From a virus, in IMG/VR virus record IMGVR_UViG_3300005095_000034, positions 1-32,775 of that record: a DNA stretch of 32,775 bases, one strand, 5' to 3'. Shown in pieces: positions 14,681 to 31,739 of this stretch. How positions within the stretch are numbered: the stretch's first letter is position 1; every line of letters starts with the position of its first letter. The translations under genes and the position numbers were made by a program. Under the pieces are notes generated by a model. That model did not search any database and was not told the DNA's origin. It was given only the letters and a program-made list of their open reading frames with translations.

Positions 14681-14723
14681 AGCCTATAGCTACCGCACGG
14701 TAGCTTGGCTATAGATGTTTTTT
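14681..14723 (+). terminator. terminator after the major capsid gene
   Basis: AGCTACC (14688-14694) pairs with GGTAGCT (14699-14705) across the loop GCAC, with an outer AGCC/GGCT stem (14681-14684 and 14707-14710), then a T-run at 14718-14723. The U-tract begins several bases after the stem, so termination may be partial. The hairpin overlaps the last codon of the opposite-strand endonuclease. Confidence 0.55.
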
Positions 14724-16211
14724 GAAGACCAAGTTCCCACAGTCAAATATCCTGCTAAAACCGTTTTCCACCATGTTTTCAGTTTCAGACTTATTCGGAT
14801 CAAATTTTTCCAACTTATCTTTTAATTTATGTTTTTGAAAATCCAGCCTTGAGTATAGTTTGGTAGTATCGCTGGTTTTGAAATATTTATAGTTTGGTCT
14901 GGAGTATCCATCGAACTCAAATCCGTTTTTCATATACACTGTTTCATTTGGATTGTAAGATGAGAATCTTAGGTCGGCATATGTGACAAGCTCTATTCCG
15001 ACTAGCCCTTTTGTTGAGTGTTTTAGTAATCTCGAAAAGGCTCCAGGCACAGATGTGTTAAGAGCATTTGAAAATCTATATAGCTCAAGCGTTGAGTTTT
15101 TTGATATCCACCTGAATGTGATTGCTGATACAAGATTTCTTCCTATATATAGCCCATATGACATATTTGTTGATCCATTTCCTCCCTGTATGTGAGTTTT
15201 ATCAAAAAACTCTTTGGCTGTTTTACTGTCTATTTTTCTTATTTCGCAATCTCTTGCGTAGAATCTAAAGTCATGCATTCCAAGTCGATTCATTATCATT
15301 GAGGAAACTATCCTGTACTTTTTGTCTATTTCGCTATCGTAGAAAAACAGAACATTGATTCCTAGGTTTGCGAAATATTTTTTCTTTTCGAGATGATAGC
15401 TTCTCCCTTTTCCTTTTAGTTCTGAATGCCAGTAGATTCCATCTGCTTCTATGCCTAGATTTTTATCTTTGACATAAATATCCAATTCTAGTCCATTTGG
15501 ATAGTCCTTTCTGTATTTTGATACATATTTAACTCCAAGTTCTTTTAGCAAGAATGATATTTTTCTCTCATGAGAAGATTCTGAGATTACCGGGGCATGT
15601 TCTTTTGTTGAGCATTTGGTGCATATCAGCTCGCCATACTTTTTTGATTTTCTCTGAAGGCTTCCTATAGTTTCTGTTCCGGTATGTCCGCATTCATATT
15701 CTATTGATACCTCCCAGTTACCATTTCCTGTCTTGCGCTTATCGCTTATTTTTATATTGTGTTTGCGTTCTAGAGTTTTAATGTTCGTATCAGAAAAGTC
15801 TCTCGCTTCATTTGTTAGGCATCTTCTGCATTTTGATTTCTTTTTTCGAATTCTTTTCTTTAGGCCGCTTAATGACATTTCAGCATCATGTCCACATGAA
15901 CATGTAAGATTAACTTTATCTCCATTTATTTCAATGTTAGAAAACCCTATCGACTCTGCTCTGTCTATCAATTGCTGATCTGTCATTGGCTTCTGTGAGT
16001 CTCTGCTATTGCATCTTTGGCAAAGAATAATATCCTTCCCTCTTCTCTTAATATCATTGAATTTCATTGCGAATCTGTGCCCGCATGCTCCGTCAACAAT
16101 AATATTGTCTCTTGCTGATATATAAGGAACGACAATCTTTCCCCCTCTTGACTCTATGTATTCTTTAACTTCTTCTCTTTTTTTCTCAACCTTTTCAACA
16201 GGCATGGGCAT
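14709..16211 (-). CDS. homing-endonuclease-like protein (zinc modules plus Vsr/PD-(D/E)XK-type nuclease)
   Basis: The only clear gene on the minus strand. Its ATG (16211 downward) follows AAGGAG. The 500-residue protein has three tandem zinc-module-like units: C43-G-H45 with C64/C67, C104/C106-G-H108 with C128/C131, and C174-G-H176 with C197/C200. Residues about 213-300 look like a very-short-patch-repair-type nuclease: HERKISFLLKELGVKY (E215), LELDIYV (D244), LGIEADGIYWHSE (E255, H262) and INVLFFYDSE. The C-terminal part (FFDKTHIQGG, YIGRNLVSAITFRW, FSNALNTSVPGAFSRLLKH) matches a module I know from free-standing phage endonucleases. Such enzymes spread by cutting genomes lacking them. It lies between the capsid unit and the connector genes and has codon use like the non-capsid genes. 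Target site unknown. Confidence 0.8.
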   Translation of the reverse strand: MPMPVEKVEKKREEVKEYIESRGGKIVVPYISARDNIIVDGACGHRFAMKFNDIKRRGKDIILCQRCNSRDSQKPMTDQQLIDRAESIGFSNIEINGDKVNLTCSCGHDAEMSLSGLKKRIRKKKSKCRRCLTNEARDFSDTNIKTLERKHNIKISDKRKTGNGNWEVSIEYECGHTGTETIGSLQRKSKKYGELICTKCSTKEHAPVISESSHERKISFLLKELGVKYVSKYRKDYPNGLELDIYVKDKNLGIEADGIYWHSELKGKGRSYHLEKKKYFANLGINVLFFYDSEIDKKYRIVSSMIMNRLGMHDFRFYARDCEIRKIDSKTAKEFFDKTHIQGGNGSTNMSYGLYIGRNLVSAITFRWISKNSTLELYRFSNALNTSVPGAFSRLLKHSTKGLVGIELVTYADLRFSSYNPNETVYMKNGFEFDGYSRPNYKYFKTSDTTKLYSRLDFQKHKLKDKLEKFDPNKSETENMVENGFSRIFDCGNLVFKKHL

Positions 16212-23855: not shown

Positions 23856-24509
23856 ATGAGCAACGTTGATGACAAGATAATTGAAAAGCTTAATAGTGAA
23901 ACAAATGGGGGGCTGAAGCCTTTTAGCACCGTTGATGGTGGATCGGCTAACAAAAAAACTCCATCAGATGAAGGAGCTAAAGAAGGAATCAGCATTTCAA
24001 ATAATGAAGATGCAAGTGCAGAAATTGATATGATCCAAGAAACTGTGCATGTTGGAGAAGATAGGCTTTCTAAAGTTATGGATAAGAAAGAGTCTATAGA
24101 GGATAAACTAAAAGAACTTGGTTTATCAAAAGACGAAGTTATGGATATGATTTTCCAACTAACAGATGATGGATATATAGAAGAAAGGGTATCTCTATAC
24201 GGAGGAAGGCTTACTGCCCTTTTCAGAAGTCCAAAAATGATAGATACAGCAATCTTCATAGACATAATGGATGAGGAGGAGATGAATACTCCTGCAAAAG
24301 TAGAATTTTATGTAAACCTATACTCATTAGCTTCAATCCTTATTAGATATAAAGGCGAAAACCTTGAAGGCATGTCCATAAAAGAACGTGCAAAATGGAT
24401 AGAGGAGAATATTCCAACTGCTCTGTACAAGGTGATACTTAAAAAAGGCCTTGAATTTCTCAGAAAAGTTGAGCTATTGTCATCAGAAGAGGTGGCAAAT
24501 TTTTTCTAA
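23856..24509 (+). CDS. tail assembly chaperone, short form, 217 aa
   Basis: ATG at 23856 follows GGAGAG, one base after the upstream stop. The N-terminal 80 residues are low-complexity and charged. The C-terminal domain (about 80-217) reads LGLSKDEVMDMIFQLTDDGY, IEERVSLYGGRLTALFRSP, FYVNLYSLASILIRYKGENL and ends WIEENIPTALYKVILKKGLE with a final VANFF, the helical layout and 'V.NF' ending typical of tail assembly chaperones that bind the tape measure during tail assembly. The gene stands directly before the tape measure, the expected place. It ends in a slippery AAATTTTTTC and a hairpin, so a longer product is expected (see 23856-24817). Confidence 0.75.
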   Translation: MSNVDDKIIEKLNSETNGGLKPFSTVDGGSANKKTPSDEGAKEGISISNNEDASAEIDMIQETVHVGEDRLSKVMDKKESIEDKLKELGLSKDEVMDMIFQLTDDGYIEERVSLYGGRLTALFRSPKMIDTAIFIDIMDEEEMNTPAKVEFYVNLYSLASILIRYKGENLEGMSIKERAKWIEENIPTALYKVILKKGLEFLRKVELLSSEEVANFF

Positions 24510-24817
24510 TAACCGACCCTCTATTAAGGAGAGTCGGTTTTGTTAAAGACAAATTTATAAACTATAGTAGTAAAAGCCTTATATATCATTTTATAAATTT
24601 GTATTTATTCAAAAAAGAATTAAAAGAAGATTTATATAAAGGCAATTTGGTAAAAGCAATTATAATGTCAAATGCTCCCTACAGGGAGGAGACCTTAAAT
24701 GGTATAATTTCAGTACTTGACGATCTTGAAGTATCCTTGTCTCCAATAAGGAAAGAGATAAGCAGGGATGATGAAATATCAGACGAGGAGCTTGCAGAGC
24801 TTCGAAAAAAGATTTAA
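23856..24817 (+). CDS. tail assembly chaperone, -1 frameshift fusion form, 320 aa
   Basis: Ribosomes that slip back one base on TTTTTTC (24500-24506) continue in a frame open from 24506 to the TAA at 24815-24817, adding 103 residues (beginning LITDPLLRRVGF) to the 217-residue short form. The extension joins the stretch at 24599-24817, which lacks a good start of its own (only TTG at 24599, no ribosome binding site). Its helical end reads DDEISDEELAELRKKI. This mirrors the gpG/gpGT pair of lambda-like phages, where the short and fused proteins at a fixed ratio are needed to load the tape measure. The tape measure gene starts 12 bases later. Inferred from the intact frame and slip site; the slip frequency is unknown. 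Confidence 0.8.
24497..24540 (+). promoter_or_regulatory. programmed -1 frameshift site: slippery AAATTTTTTC plus stem-loop
   Basis: In frame, codons AAT TTT TTC precede TAA. Two overlapping X-XXY-YYZ heptamers are present: A AAT TTT (24497-24503) and T TTT TTC (24500-24506). Four bases later AACCGAC (24511-24517) pairs with GTCGGTT (24533-24539) with an inner CTC/GAG pairing, a typical stimulatory stem. The T-run after it makes it look like a terminator, but the open -1 frame through it argues for recoding. Confidence 0.8.
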
Positions 24818-24829
24818 TGGAGACCGCTT

Positions 24830-27800
24830 ATGGATTTTACTACAGGTAGCTTTGGCCCATTAGGTGGAAATTTCGGGCCTAATGTTTCTATGGGCGGGCT
24901 TAGTGCATTTACCGGAATTGATGGGTATGACTACAAAAGATTTTCTCCTACACTTGGATATCAAGATCCAAGATACTCTCTTCACTCACTAGGGATAAAA
25001 GACACAATACTGCATGATTATCTGCATATCCCAAGGCCTATGGGGACAAATTTTGCTCAGGAACATCTTGCAAAAGAAGAATATCGTGCTCTATCAACAG
25101 CATCAATAGGATTCGATGCCGCAATTTTCGCATCACCAATAATCGGAGCAAAATATGGCGGTATTGTAGGTGGAATTGCTGCACCGTTTATTGCTGGCGC
25201 AATGAAAGATAGATATTTCGATAATTATATGCTCAGTCAGCGAGTAAACGAGTTTACCGGAAATATAAGAGACCAAGAAACCGGAGGAGTTGGTCTCGGT
25301 GGAAAACAGATTACCGCAGTAAGTAAGTTCATAAGGCAAGAGTCGGCAAAAGATCTTCTCCTTGAGACAAAGGATATAGAGGATATACTCAAAACATCGT
25401 TTAACACTGGAATTATGAGCGATGTTGGAGATACGTCGTCCATTAAATCAAAAATGAGAGAGCTTACAAAAGAGGTAAAGAAAATTGCAGATTTATTTGG
25501 GTCAGAGGACTATAAAGGTATTGTAAGGGCGTTGAATGAATTTAAAAGCATAGGTATATCAGATGTCCATTCTATGGCTATGTTTGCAAAAACTGAGAAA
25601 TTTGCAGCAAAGTATGCTGGAATATCAGATGAAGCTATGCATGAGCAAGTACTTAAGGCTGTACAGAATGCGAAAGTAACAGGACTTGATACAAGACTTA
25701 GCGCAAGAGCCATAATGGGTGAAGCTGCAGAGATGGGGCTAATGCAGCAGACAGGGGAAATGAGCGCCGCCATGACCAATAAGAGAAGATACCTTGACGC
25801 TGCAAACAATACAAGGGTAACAATAAGCGAATTCAATAAGGTATTCACTGCTGGCGCATCAGAAGATATGAAAAAGATGTATGCAAAGTATTCCGCTGAA
25901 GAAAATGGAACAACGGCGGAGGAAGAGTACAAGAGGCTCATATCAATGTCAAATGCGCAACAGGCTGTGGAAATACAAAAAATGGCATCAAGAAATAAAG
26001 ATTTTAGATATCTTTACACTGATCCAAACCTAGCTAAAGCGCAAGCTAGAAAAGTTGATGTTGGAAACATAAACCCATTCCCATATGAGTTGGCAAATGC
26101 TGTAGAAAGCGCAAAAAAAATGCTTGGTCCCGATGCAACAGTCACACAAATAGTTTCTGCGGTATCTAGATTTGATTTCAACAGGGCAGAAGTAAATCAA
26201 ATGGCAAGAGAGGCTGGCGTTGATGCGGATGAATATCTGCAACAGAGAATAAAGACATATTTGCAAGGATATCAGCGTGGGGGAAGAAAAGGTGGGCTAA
26301 GAGAGCTTACAAGAGGAGACAGGGCTGCGAATGCCGAGAGAACATTTGATGAACTACTCATAGATAGAAGTAGAGAAAAGGAAAATACTACTCTTTATAA
26401 CAATATCAGAAGGACCTTTTCAGAAACAATGAACTCTATAGCTGATGTTGTTGGGTATGGAGCAGAAAAGGTTCAGGACAATGCAAAGGCGCAGAGGGAA
26501 GCGCTTCTTTCAAGGTCAAATATTTTTGAAAAAGAAGGGCCTGGAAGGTTTGGACTTGTTAGTTCTGCATTATCAGGCGAGAAGTTGAGTGCCATAGATG
26601 CATACAAGATGCTTGCAGACATAAGTCCTGTCCCTAGGGCTAAAAATGACTCAATTTCATCAATAATGGGCCTAAATAAAGAAGTTGAATTAGACCTAAG
26701 ATATGGAGGGGCTGGGAATGCGCTCATGGTGATGGGTGCATCGATGTATGAGAATGGAGAGCAAACAGCTATTGGAAGAATTTTGACAAAAGCTGGAAGA
26801 GCGATAGATAAGTATGGTTTTGAAATTTCAAGTCCGCTTGATTTGCTTGGGTATGGGAACAATATAAAAAGGAGAGGCAAGAAAATAAAATTTAGTAGTC
26901 TCGAAAAAGAACTAATGGATGATTATGAAGATGATTTTGAGTCAGGTACAGCAAATTATTACGCAAATATGGCCACATTGATAAATAAAGAAAGGGGAGG
27001 AGATACGCAGCTCCTTAAGGCATATAGAGCATACAAAATGCAAAAAAACAGGGGAGAAGACACATCATCACAAAAATATTCAGATTATGAAATAAGCCAA
27101 ATACAAAAGAGTATTGAAGAAAATGGATATGTGCCGAAATTTCTTAAAACAGAAGATGGTGGCAGAATAACTCTTAGCAGAGAAGAAAGAGCACGGATTG
27201 AAAAAATGTTTATGGCATCAAAGACTTCTGCAATTAGTAGTCTAAGTGATGAAGATATATTCTCAATTGAAAGCAAGAAGAGTTTTTCTGAAATAGAAAG
27301 GGCTATAGAGAGTGGGAGCATAGGGAAAGTCAGATCAAAATTTGCGGACATGATAAAAAGAGTGAAGTCATCATCTATTTCAGATGATGAAAAAATAGAA
27401 AGAATAAAAAAAATACAAGATGCGCAAAACAAGGTAGTTTCATCTTTGACTTCAGGTTTTGATTCCATAAGAAAGGAACAGGAGCAAAATCTACTCGGAA
27501 TAGATAATGATGACTATAGGAGAAAAGTTTCAGGTGCAATATCTGCCTCAGCAACGACAAGGGATAGGATTTTCAAAAGAGCAATTGATTCTGCAATGAC
27601 AGACTCATCATTGTCTGCGGAAGAGAGAAAGACTTTAATTTCTCAACTTAAGCGCACTAGAGATGAAATGTCAAAGACGGCACGAAACTCAGACAAAATA
27701 ACAAGGGGCGCTGTGGAGGAAGCCAGAGGGATACTTGTTGATAAGTCTGCAGACAAGGCTCAAGAAGAATACAGAAAAAGAAGAGGTGATATTTTTAAAA

Positions 27801-29062
27801 AACTATTATCAGAAATTGGAAGAGGTGATAATATAGCGCTGTCTGATGGAACTATGTTCAAGACAAAAGATATAGTTGGCACCATAGATAAAATTTATGA
27901 TGATGAGGATGATGCCACACGTGCGCTTGGGATAATAGACATGGCAGCAAGCTCAGGCGATAGGGGGATGGTTGAGAAGCTAGCAAGAACAGATGACTTA
28001 TCAAGAGAAGACACCAAAAAGCTAATGCAGGTATATGAAGCGGCAAGGGCGCTCAAGAAAGACAGGGGGGCTACTGCTGATATAGATAAGAGATTGAGAA
28101 AGGAGTCATTTGAGAAATACAAGAAGCTAAAAAGTGATTATGAATTTGGCGTATATGATATGTTCAAATCTGACTACCAAAGTTCCAGGGATGCATTTAA
28201 AGATATGCAATTGTATGAACTTTATTCTCTTGAAGGAAGATTTGCAGAAGGTAGCGAAGAGTATAAAGCCTGGGAGCAGACGAAAACAGAAAAAGAATAT
28301 GCTGGTAAGGCGTATGCTGCAAAAATGATGGCCGACTATAGGAGTCCTCTTGCCGCATTCGGAGATATAAAAGCTGCCACAAAAATATCTTCAAAAGAAA
28401 TAAAAGACTCAATGAGAGCCATCAATCTTTCTCATGATGCAGGAAAGAGCACCAGCGAACTAATATCGTTCATAAGAGACAATATAGACGGAGATGAAGA
28501 TAGCGTTGATATAGAGCGAAGCATAAGTAAGTTTTTTGGAGGGAAAGGTGACATAGAAGGCATGACTAAAACCATGCAAAGTCTTCTTGTGGCATCTGGT
28601 GGTGACAAAGATAAAATGCTTGGTATGCTAAAAGGAAGCGTTGAGACTGCCGAGGAATATAGAAGAAAAGTATCTGAACATATGGCTGATATAGCTGGGA
28701 TAACCGGAGATAGCACGAAAAGAAGAGGCTTCTCCTTTGAAGTAGATAGGCTTCTCAGCGAACAAGAAGAACAGGGATACAGCAGGGATGTTTTAAATAA
28801 GAAACTGCAGGCGATAGGCGCAAAATATGGAGCTGCGCATATGCCAGCAGATATAACAGAGCTTGTAACAAAAGCGCATAGGGACACTATATTAGAGGCT
28901 GGATTAACAGGAGAAAGTTCACCAAAAAATGCAAAAGAACTTTATGATAGAACAGGTGGAGACATAAAGACAACTGTTACGTTAATTGCATCAACAGTAA
29001 AAGAAATGAGTCAATATAGCAATCAGATGGTTGGATACATGAAGAAGCTGGCAGACGAATAA
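24830..29062 (+). CDS. tail tape measure protein, 1410 aa
   Basis: Long protein that sets tail length and is ejected into the host. ATG at 24830 follows GGAG, 12 bases after the end of the chaperone frameshift product. The N-terminus is Gly-rich (TTGSFGPLGGNFGPNVSMGG); residues about 93-125 form a Gly/Ala-rich hydrophobic segment (IIGAKYGGIVGGIAAPFIAG), as often found in tape measures. The rest is long helical, charged sequence rich in Lys, Glu, Ala and Ser, with no enzymatic domain recognised. At about 1.5 angstrom per residue, a rule for helical tape measures, the tail would be roughly 210 nm long. This is the largest gene in the window. Confidence 0.85.
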   Translation: MDFTTGSFGPLGGNFGPNVSMGGLSAFTGIDGYDYKRFSPTLGYQDPRYSLHSLGIKDTILHDYLHIPRPMGTNFAQEHLAKEEYRALSTASIGFDAAIFASPIIGAKYGGIVGGIAAPFIAGAMKDRYFDNYMLSQRVNEFTGNIRDQETGGVGLGGKQITAVSKFIRQESAKDLLLETKDIEDILKTSFNTGIMSDVGDTSSIKSKMRELTKEVKKIADLFGSEDYKGIVRALNEFKSIGISDVHSMAMFAKTEKFAAKYAGISDEAMHEQVLKAVQNAKVTGLDTRLSARAIMGEAAEMGLMQQTGEMSAAMTNKRRYLDAANNTRVTISEFNKVFTAGASEDMKKMYAKYSAEENGTTAEEEYKRLISMSNAQQAVEIQKMASRNKDFRYLYTDPNLAKAQARKVDVGNINPFPYELANAVESAKKMLGPDATVTQIVSAVSRFDFNRAEVNQMAREAGVDADEYLQQRIKTYLQGYQRGGRKGGLRELTRGDRAANAERTFDELLIDRSREKENTTLYNNIRRTFSETMNSIADVVGYGAEKVQDNAKAQREALLSRSNIFEKEGPGRFGLVSSALSGEKLSAIDAYKMLADISPVPRAKNDSISSIMGLNKEVELDLRYGGAGNALMVMGASMYENGEQTAIGRILTKAGRAIDKYGFEISSPLDLLGYGNNIKRRGKKIKFSSLEKELMDDYEDDFESGTANYYANMATLINKERGGDTQLLKAYRAYKMQKNRGEDTSSQKYSDYEISQIQKSIEENGYVPKFLKTEDGGRITLSREERARIEKMFMASKTSAISSLSDEDIFSIESKKSFSEIERAIESGSIGKVRSKFADMIKRVKSSSISDDEKIERIKKIQDAQNKVVSSLTSGFDSIRKEQEQNLLGIDNDDYRRKVSGAISASATTRDRIFKRAIDSAMTDSSLSAEERKTLISQLKRTRDEMSKTARNSDKITRGAVEEARGILVDKSADKAQEEYRKRRGDIFKKLLSEIGRGDNIALSDGTMFKTKDIVGTIDKIYDDEDDATRALGIIDMAASSGDRGMVEKLARTDDLSREDTKKLMQVYEAARALKKDRGATADIDKRLRKESFEKYKKLKSDYEFGVYDMFKSDYQSSRDAFKDMQLYELYSLEGRFAEGSEEYKAWEQTKTEKEYAGKAYAAKMMADYRSPLAAFGDIKAATKISSKEIKDSMRAINLSHDAGKSTSELISFIRDNIDGDEDSVDIERSISKFFGGKGDIEGMTKTMQSLLVASGGDKDKMLGMLKGSVETAEEYRRKVSEHMADIAGITGDSTKRRGFSFEVDRLLSEQEEQGYSRDVLNKKLQAIGAKYGAAHMPADITELVTKAHRDTILEAGLTGESSPKNAKELYDRTGGDIKTTVTLIASTVKEMSQYSNQMVGYMKKLADE

Positions 29063-29674: not shown

Positions 29675-31111
29675 ATGGCCGATAACACTCCTGAGATTTA
29701 CTCGATATCTTTTCAGACAAGAAAGCTAGGGACTCTTGCAACTGGATACACCTTGAAGGTTGCAGGAGAAAAATATGGAATGGGGATTCCTGAAGAGCTT
29801 GCGGATGTCTGCAAAAACCCAATGAAACTAGGAATGGGAGAGGAAATAAACAGGGACTATGAAGCAAAAGTGGAATACTATTGCGACCCGCTATATGCAA
29901 GGCTAGATAGGGTATGTTTTATCACAAATATGGATATAGATGATGTTACAGGAGCAAGGGTTATAAATAGAAATAAGGCAATAGAAATTTTCAGAAATTC
30001 CCTTATAAATCTTGATGTGTCAAGCTTTATGAATGAATTCATGAATACGGATGGAATAACTTTTAATCCTCCTGATATCTCAAAAGAAAAATATCCAAAT
30101 CCAAGTTTCGTTAGAAGCTTTTTGGCAGTGAGCAATGTGTTGCCAATAGGGAATATTGTATCAACTCTTGATATATTGGCATCATATCTTCCGGTATTTG
30201 GGGTTGAGATGTATTGGAATGGCAAAGACCAATATTCTGTAGAAGAGCCAAGAATGCTTCATCCTGAAAACATAGTTCATACAGTTCCAAGCGAAGATAT
30301 ATTATCAATGTCTATTCGTGAAGACCTTTATAATATACCTGATGTCGTAATACCAAAGTTTAATATTCAACAGGTTCTTGGGAAAGGCCATATTGAGGCC
30401 ATAATGGCAAATATGGCAAAAAATGTGTCAAAAGCTATGGAGATTGCAGGAACAGATGAGCATGTAAACTTTAAGGTATCAACCGCTGAGATACCACAAG
30501 TAATAGTTGATGCGTGGATAGTTGGAAAAATGCAAGAGGATGATAATATTGGCTTGACTACAGGCATATTATCAACAAAGTTTGACCACATAAATGAGTC
30601 TCTTGGTGCTCTATATTCAAGAATAGCTGTGTCTTCTGCTATGTATCAAATACAGTCAGGAACGATAAGGATAATTTTTAATCCAAAGGTATCCATCCCG
30701 TCGTCATGGTATAAAATAGGAGAAAAGAATTACTTTGTTTCAGATATTTCACATGAGATAACAAGGTTCAGAAGAGAAACAATTCTTACTGTTGTAATGA
30801 CAGAAGATGGCGCAAAAAAAGTAACAGAGAGGCTTGAGACAATAAGGTCTGTTTTTGGAACACCTGAAGACAATACTGAAGACAAGGTAAGAGAAGGATC
30901 TGAAGACAAGGTAAATTCAAAAGACGAAGAAGCAAAATCAAAAAGAAAAGATGCTAAAAGCGAAAAACACTTCAACCCTTTTATCGGAAGACACTCTGTT
31001 TCTGGATCAGAAAAAGGAAGAAAGAGAAATCTTGGTGCTTTCTTCCCAAGAAAATCAGATAAGACTAAAATAGAAAAATCTGTAGCTTCAAAAAGGATTC
31101 CAAGTGAATGA
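29675..31111 (+). CDS. putative baseplate hub protein (gp27/gpD-like), 478 aa
   Basis: ATG at 29675 is one base after the previous stop, with no strong ribosome binding site; coupled translation is likely. The middle has patterns of hub proteins: IGNIVSTLDILASYLPVFGV, EMYWNGKDQYSVEEPRMLHP, a break, then NFKVSTAEIPQVIVDAWIVG and, late, SWYKIGEKNYFVSDISHEIT followed by ILTVVMTEDG. Such proteins form the ring at the tail tip that carries the spike. From about residue 400 the sequence is a Lys/Glu/Ser-rich low-complexity tail (KVREGSEDKVNSKDEEAKSK), unusual for a hub and possibly disordered. It overlaps the next gene by eight bases. Confidence 0.6.
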   Translation: MADNTPEIYSISFQTRKLGTLATGYTLKVAGEKYGMGIPEELADVCKNPMKLGMGEEINRDYEAKVEYYCDPLYARLDRVCFITNMDIDDVTGARVINRNKAIEIFRNSLINLDVSSFMNEFMNTDGITFNPPDISKEKYPNPSFVRSFLAVSNVLPIGNIVSTLDILASYLPVFGVEMYWNGKDQYSVEEPRMLHPENIVHTVPSEDILSMSIREDLYNIPDVVIPKFNIQQVLGKGHIEAIMANMAKNVSKAMEIAGTDEHVNFKVSTAEIPQVIVDAWIVGKMQEDDNIGLTTGILSTKFDHINESLGALYSRIAVSSAMYQIQSGTIRIIFNPKVSIPSSWYKIGEKNYFVSDISHEITRFRRETILTVVMTEDGAKKVTERLETIRSVFGTPEDNTEDKVREGSEDKVNSKDEEAKSKRKDAKSEKHFNPFIGRHSVSGSEKGRKRNLGAFFPRKSDKTKIEKSVASKRIPSE

Positions 31112-31739
31112 TATATACACCAAATACAAGAATGATATAGACTCACAGGTAGCGTATGCCGCAAGAAAGTATGGCGGGAACCTTCCTTCTTCAGTTGCAA
31201 AGGCTCATGCAAAACTACTTGCACAAAAGGCAATGAAAAACTACTCACCCGATAAAGGAAATGTAAAAACATATTTGTCTAAAAGGCTTCAGAAGTTGAG
31301 CAGAATAGCGTATAAAGCATCAACGCCATTAAATATACCGGAATCAAGGCTTATGTCTAGGGCAAAAATAAGAGATTTTGTTGATGAATACAAGGATTCG
31401 TTCGGAAGACATCCAACAGCGGAAGAGATATCTAGCGCAACTGGCATAAAGCATTCTGATGCAAAAAACTATATTCATGAATCTGCATCTATAACAAATG
31501 AATCTTCATTTGATAATATATCTGACAGATCCGCTAAATATATATCTGAAGAAAGCATAATAGCATCTCTCCCACATGATCTGAGGAATATAGCCGAAGA
31601 TATATACATTAATGGGAAAAAGGAAAAGGATATACTGTCAGATCATAAAATAGGCAGAACTTCCTATTATGCAAAAAAGAAAAAGATAAACTCATTTATA
31701 CAAGAGCATTCAGGGCTTGCAAATATAGAATATAGGTAA
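31104..31739 (+). CDS. sigma-70-like factor inside the baseplate module, 211 aa
   Basis: The start is GTG at 31104, after AAGGA, inside the end of the hub gene; the nearby ATG at 31108 is out of frame. Residues 46-68 (NYSPDKGNVKTYLSKRLQKL) resemble the region 2 core of sigma-70 factors ('Y.P.KG.F.TY'). Residues 76-122 match the start of region 3 (NIPESRLMSRAKIRDFVDEY, then GRHPTAEEISSATGI). Residues 155-200 could be region 4 with helix-turn-helix (LPHDLRNIAEDIYINGKKEK). Proteins like this are known from structural modules of some large phages. It could direct RNA polymerase to late promoters, or have been reused as a virion protein. Region 2 is short, so promoter melting is doubtful. Confidence 0.6.
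   Translation: MNDIYTKYKNDIDSQVAYAARKYGGNLPSSVAKAHAKLLAQKAMKNYSPDKGNVKTYLSKRLQKLSRIAYKASTPLNIPESRLMSRAKIRDFVDEYKDSFGRHPTAEEISSATGIKHSDAKNYIHESASITNESSFDNISDRSAKYISEESIIASLPHDLRNIAEDIYINGKKEKDILSDHKIGRTSYYAKKKKINSFIQEHSGLANIEYR

Follow-up and report, generated by a model that had tools for sequence, protein, structure and literature searches.

The chaperone gene and its surroundings

The window analyzed here, that is, the whole stretch of 32,775 nucleotides of the IMG/VR virus record IMGVR_UViG_3300005095_000034, encodes on the plus strand a predicted short (G-like) tail assembly chaperone of 217 aa (positions 23856-24509). The assignment draws on an open reading frame preceded by an AAGGAG Shine-Dalgarno sequence, homology to gp2 of Salmonella phage Arash and to other relatives, and the fold of an AlphaFold2 model. 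In the zero frame, this gene ends with GCA AAT TTT TTC TAA, and the stop codon (24507-24509) is the first of two tandem stops, TAA TAA (24507-24512). Two overlapping -1 slippery heptamers of the X XXY YYZ form precede the stop in the zero frame, namely A AAT TTT (24497-24503), which ends 3 nt before the stop, and T TTT TTC (24500-24506), which abuts the stop and whose position is kept in the relatives. In-frame X XXY YYZ sequences (Y = A/T) are present at 0.5% of the codon positions in the window, and in all 28 other genes the last 18 codons before the stop are free of them. Simple readthrough of the stop is ruled out because the zero frame contains TAA TAA and, soon after, yet another TAA.

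The -1 frame is open from 24506 to 24814 and ends with a stop codon at 24815-24817, yielding a predicted extension of 103 aa (24506-24817 including the stop, plus strand; the T-like part of the putative fused chaperone) and a fused product of 320 aa; the chance of a random opening of 102 codons at the composition of the window is p ~3e-4. The only start listed for this frame is a TTG at 24599, which would open an ORF of 72 codons and lacks a Shine-Dalgarno sequence. The next gene follows 12 nt after the extension, at 24830, and is preceded by GGAG. Both heptamers, the open -1 frame, the length of the fused product, the 12-nt gap and the TTG start without a ribosome binding site had been described in the first-pass annotation and were confirmed at the same positions.

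So was the seven-pair stem with inner pairing that had been placed 4 nt downstream of the heptamers. The hairpin (24511-24539, plus strand) consists of outer arms of 7 pairs (24511-24517/24533-24539) and 4 inner pairs (24519-24522/24528-24531); the minimum free energy of the segment 24507-24546 is -14.7 kcal/mol (z -4.6), and none of 200 shuffled sequences folds as well. The hairpin begins 4 nt after heptamer 2 and 7 nt after heptamer 1, against a usual spacing of ~5-9 nt, and it is a possible stimulator of frameshifting. Among the relatives compared, the position of the downstream structure varies, and a hairpin near the site is found only in the window and in contig G001, the stem of which has CCGAC/GTCGG arms in common with the window hairpin. 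The Arash group has its strong stem ~20 nt downstream of the slip site, and in Vibrio phage D69 and relative L119 the structure is weak. On the 3' side of the first hairpin, the window also contains a perfect 13-bp inverted repeat (24549-24561/24590-24602; ACAAATTTATAAA at 24549-24602, with a loop of 28 nt), the 3' arm of which includes the TTG at 24599. The first-pass annotation mentions neither this repeat nor the tandem stops.

Identity of the chaperone, the tape measure candidate and the phage lineage

No usable Pfam or PHROG match was obtained for the chaperone, the extension or the tape measure protein of either the window or Arash; the extension gave a weak PHROG match (phrog_35957, E 0.03). 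A sequence search of the PDB with a 15-member alignment (A6), the sequences of which are too divergent for scanning the sequence collection, gave no match. The AlphaFold2 model of the short protein has a pLDDT of 73 overall and ~82-96 over residues 81-210, and the only high-probability PDB match of this model in a Foldseek search is the HK97 tail assembly chaperone 2OB9 (probability 0.98, E 0.04). In VIA-align, the top two matches are YqbN (3KLU, Z 7.6), which we take to be a member of the prophage tail chaperones, and 2OB9 (Z 7.2), followed by a row with Z 5.0; these scores are moderate, Z ~7 being a range that VIA-align calls common. Matches of the short protein among viral structure models likewise include proteins that bear the name tail assembly chaperone. 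Together, these predictions support a tail assembly chaperone fold, with moderate scores that agree with the position of the gene. The extension was modeled with low confidence (pLDDT 64), too weakly for a structural search.

The gene after the chaperone (24830-29062, plus strand, 1410 aa) encodes a homolog of Arash gp4 and lies directly downstream of the pair of ORFs in the -1 relation. It has no Pfam match and matches PHROGs only at chance level; we consider it a candidate tape measure gene by its position, its length and the abundance of the Arash homolog in virions, where gp4, one of the proteins detected most, is represented by 60 peptides and 1952 spectra (PMC10585845). Arash gp2 and gp3 are missing from the 116 reported virion proteins (PMC10585845), which would fit a chaperone that does not stay in the tail, although absence from such a list is weak evidence. 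Arash itself belongs to the myoviruses, its tail measuring 140 nm (PMC10585845), and its homolog of the sheath protein matches tail sheath; given the sheath gene in the relatives, the window phage is very probably a myovirus as well.

Two other genes of the window deserve mention. Immediately after the capsid gene, on the minus strand, there is an ORF of 500 aa (14709-16211) without a Pfam match, containing the motif LGIEADGIYWHS, which presumably resembles those of EDxHD homing endonucleases. The gene at 31104-31739 occupies a position in the tail region like that of Arash gp10, annotated as a sigma factor, and its product, with a weak match to the transcription regulators of phrog_36 (E 0.005), is possibly a virion-borne sigma-like factor.

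Relatives and conservation of the slip site

Searches with the large terminase subunit (TerL) and the sheath protein led to Salmonella phage Arash and Vibrio phages D69, D181 and D148. Relatives in IMG/VR were gathered with TerL and capsid protein alignments, and the chaperone gene was then located in them with chaperone alignments. Used as DNA, the segment 23700-25100 had no match among phage records, and at the DNA level the window has no near relative in the phage collection; no relatives were found with the chaperone, the tape measure protein or the sheath protein as single queries against IMG/VR, or with the chaperone and the tape measure protein as single queries against phage records. 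In Arash, D69 and D148, the TerL gene precedes gp2, after which come another ORF, in the -1 frame, and then the gene for a protein of ~1,050-1,100 aa. In the annotations of these three phages, the frameshift was missed and the -1 extension appears as a separate gene with an internal start (OQ632216 2176-2535, OZ195729 2048-2392 and OZ196545 2069-2395, respectively).

The comparison comprised 18 distinct loci, namely the window and 17 relatives including Arash and D69, with duplicates counted once. Records without a chaperone match (e.g., L011, 24.5 kb) are either fragments or too divergent and were counted neither way. In the test on relatives that the first-pass annotation had set, no locus had a premature stop in the -1 frame, which is open for 99-139 codons past the slip site in all 18, and every locus had an X XXY YYZ heptamer abutting the stop (18/18). 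The heptamers are A AAT TTC, A AAT TTT, T TTT TTC, T TTT TTT and G GGT TTC, so that the slip rule is retained although the encoded residue differs (Asn, Phe or Gly). At the A-type sites, the codon before the heptamer always ends in A while the amino acid varies (Ala, Ser, Glu, Lys or Leu), and AAT is chosen even in genomes that strongly prefer AAC, where its share among the Asn codons is only 8-18%; multiplied together, these codon choices give ~1e-14, with the proviso that the loci are related by descent and the trials are not independent.

The two closest relatives of the window end the chaperone gene with GAT TTT TTC TAG (L107, on contig G001) and GAT TTT TTT TAG (L106, on contig G023). Because both lack the first heptamer of the window, T TTT TTC (24500-24506) is the homologous site, and the comparison of sequences points to the second heptamer, directly at the stop, as the conserved slip site. 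The mean distance from slip site to stop is 26-36 nt in the data sets of PMC10885494, and the constant zero distance observed here is therefore unusual.

Two cases were kept apart from the count of 18. One virus departs from the rule in that its chaperone gene ends with GAT TTT TAA, without the XXX part; T TTT is kept and the homologous -1 frame is open. It is represented by contig L098 of a hydrothermal MAG (1990-2040) and by IMG/VR contig L122 (3137-3170), which are identical in this region. The more distant G031, which matches the extension only (E 2e-4), carries A AAA AAT, separated from the stop by 3 nt. As a separate observation, contigs of this phage group (L064, L097 and L098) occur in an Archaeoglobales MAG (isolate name B35_Guay2), which reflects either contamination or a real virus of an Archaeoglobales organism.

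Conservation of the extension

The extension has homologs in all relatives, and in their alignment the -1 products align from the slip residue onward, with an invariant Arg at position 10. The Leu just after the shift is fixed by the letters of the stop codon and was therefore excluded as evidence. In close pairs of relatives, dN/dS of the extension is 0.06-0.39; the nearest relatives of the window are too distant for reliable dS.

Alternative explanations

Four other readings of the locus were weighed against programmed -1 frameshifting with tandem slippage. The extension might be a separate small gene, translated either from the internal TTG at 24599 or by ribosomes that reinitiate past the stop of the chaperone gene. 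The 72-codon ORF is present, and the annotators of Arash and D69 called its equivalent as a gene in its own right, but the TTG lacks a Shine-Dalgarno sequence and is located within the inverted repeat, the homology of the extension in the window lineage begins at the slip site, 31 codons upstream of the TTG, and an independent start would have no need of the heptamer rule. We regard a separate gene as very unlikely. A similarly low probability is assigned to transcriptional slippage, whereby the polymerase would shift the frame in the mRNA on a run of T. Such a run exists in the window (T6, AAATTTTTTC) and in G023 (T8), whereas most relatives have only A3T3C or G3T3C, which are good sites for tandem slippage and too short for polymerase slippage. 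Least credible is an intrinsic terminator, formed by the hairpin and the TTTTG after it, with the -1 ORF as a decayed remnant: the stem is strong and a short T run follows it, but termination at this point would stop transcription ahead of the tape measure gene, the stem-plus-T layout is missing from most relatives, and every relative keeps the extension open, with purifying selection on it in close pairs.

The remaining reading is a variant of -1 frameshifting, in which the stop codon would occupy the A site and, during slow termination, a single tRNA, the tRNA-Phe of the P site, would move back from TTY to TTT. In its favor, all 18 loci have the heptamer directly at the stop, and T TTY followed by a stop is retained even in the GAT TTT TAA virus, which suggests that a P-site Phe next to an A-site stop might be enough. 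However, the XXX triplet is conserved through changes of the encoded residue and would be needless for a slip confined to the P site, and on balance we find this variant improbable. A lambda G/GT-type programmed -1 frameshift yielding a short and a fused chaperone is by far the most probable interpretation of the sequences and models, because the slip rule and the extension are conserved, the predicted fold is chaperone-like and the gene precedes the tape measure candidate. The frameshift in the chaperone gene that had been proposed from the window sequence is supported by the comparison of relatives, the conservation of the extension and the fold.

Proposed mechanism and implications

Under the tandem-slip mechanism, most ribosomes would terminate at the TAA at 24507 and release the 217-aa chaperone. 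A minority would slip by -1 on T TTT TTC with tRNA-Phe in both the P and A sites; alternatively, the slip might occur on A AAT TTT with tRNA-Asn and tRNA-Phe, giving an identical product. The slipped ribosomes would bypass the tandem stops and translate 103 further codons, producing the 320-aa fused protein. If the analogy to lambda holds, the domain common to both forms would coat the candidate tape measure protein, the product of the next gene (24830-29062). Tail tube subunits would be recruited by the extension, and the proportion of short to fused form would be important for assembly. We infer the slip event, its efficiency, the stimulation by the hairpin and the binding partners.

It is conceivable, albeit rather unlikely, that the zero-frame stop is itself part of the signal, with the slip taking place while the stop is in or entering the A site and the speed of termination, through the level of release factor, setting the ratio of the two chaperones. 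Such a role of the stop would explain both the stop-abutting heptamer in every relative and the T TTT TAA of one virus.

The analysis identifies the chaperone, and along with it the candidate tape measure gene, in a group of phages of ~160-187 kb that are mostly unannotated. The gene models of Arash, D69 and D148 need joining. Furthermore, the natural variants of the slip site, all located at a stop codon, form a clean set on whether a neighboring stop aids -1 frameshifting.

Comparison with known systems

Frameshifting of this kind is well known in tailed phages; for gpG/gpGT, the tail assembly chaperone of lambda, a -1 frameshift was reportedly described by Xu, Hendrix and Duda in 2004. As predicted for the window, lambda makes one protein nested within the other through a -1 slip close to the 3' end of the short gene, and the tape measure gene comes immediately afterwards; the window lineage differs in that the heptamer abuts the stop and the tail is contractile. 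Both lambda proteins, gpG and gpGT, bind to the tape measure protein, and the tail tube subunit is brought in through the T part (PMC5009743). The equivalence to lambda gpGT put forward in the first-pass annotation holds at the level of function and does not extend to sequence: the putative fused protein would be a functional equivalent and not a sequence relative, because the phage is very probably a myovirus. More generally, a sequence relation of the window chaperone to any described chaperone family is undetectable. As far as sequence comparison can tell, it is a separate family, unrecognized by Pfam and PHROGs, that would do the well-known job of gpG/gpGT.

The HK97 tail assembly chaperone 2OB9 and YqbN (3KLU) are the closest systems by predicted structure. 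The window fold, at residues ~91-205, aligns with them over 92-103 residues at 9-13% identity, a similarity missed by sequence search, and the window protein has a longer disordered N-terminus than either. The true homologs are Arash gp2/gp3 (OQ632216) and D69 genes 2/3 (OZ195729). Both pairs differ from the window in being annotated as two hypothetical genes and in lacking a hairpin 4 nt from the site; they have the same order of chaperone, extension and tape measure, and A AAT TTC at the stop.
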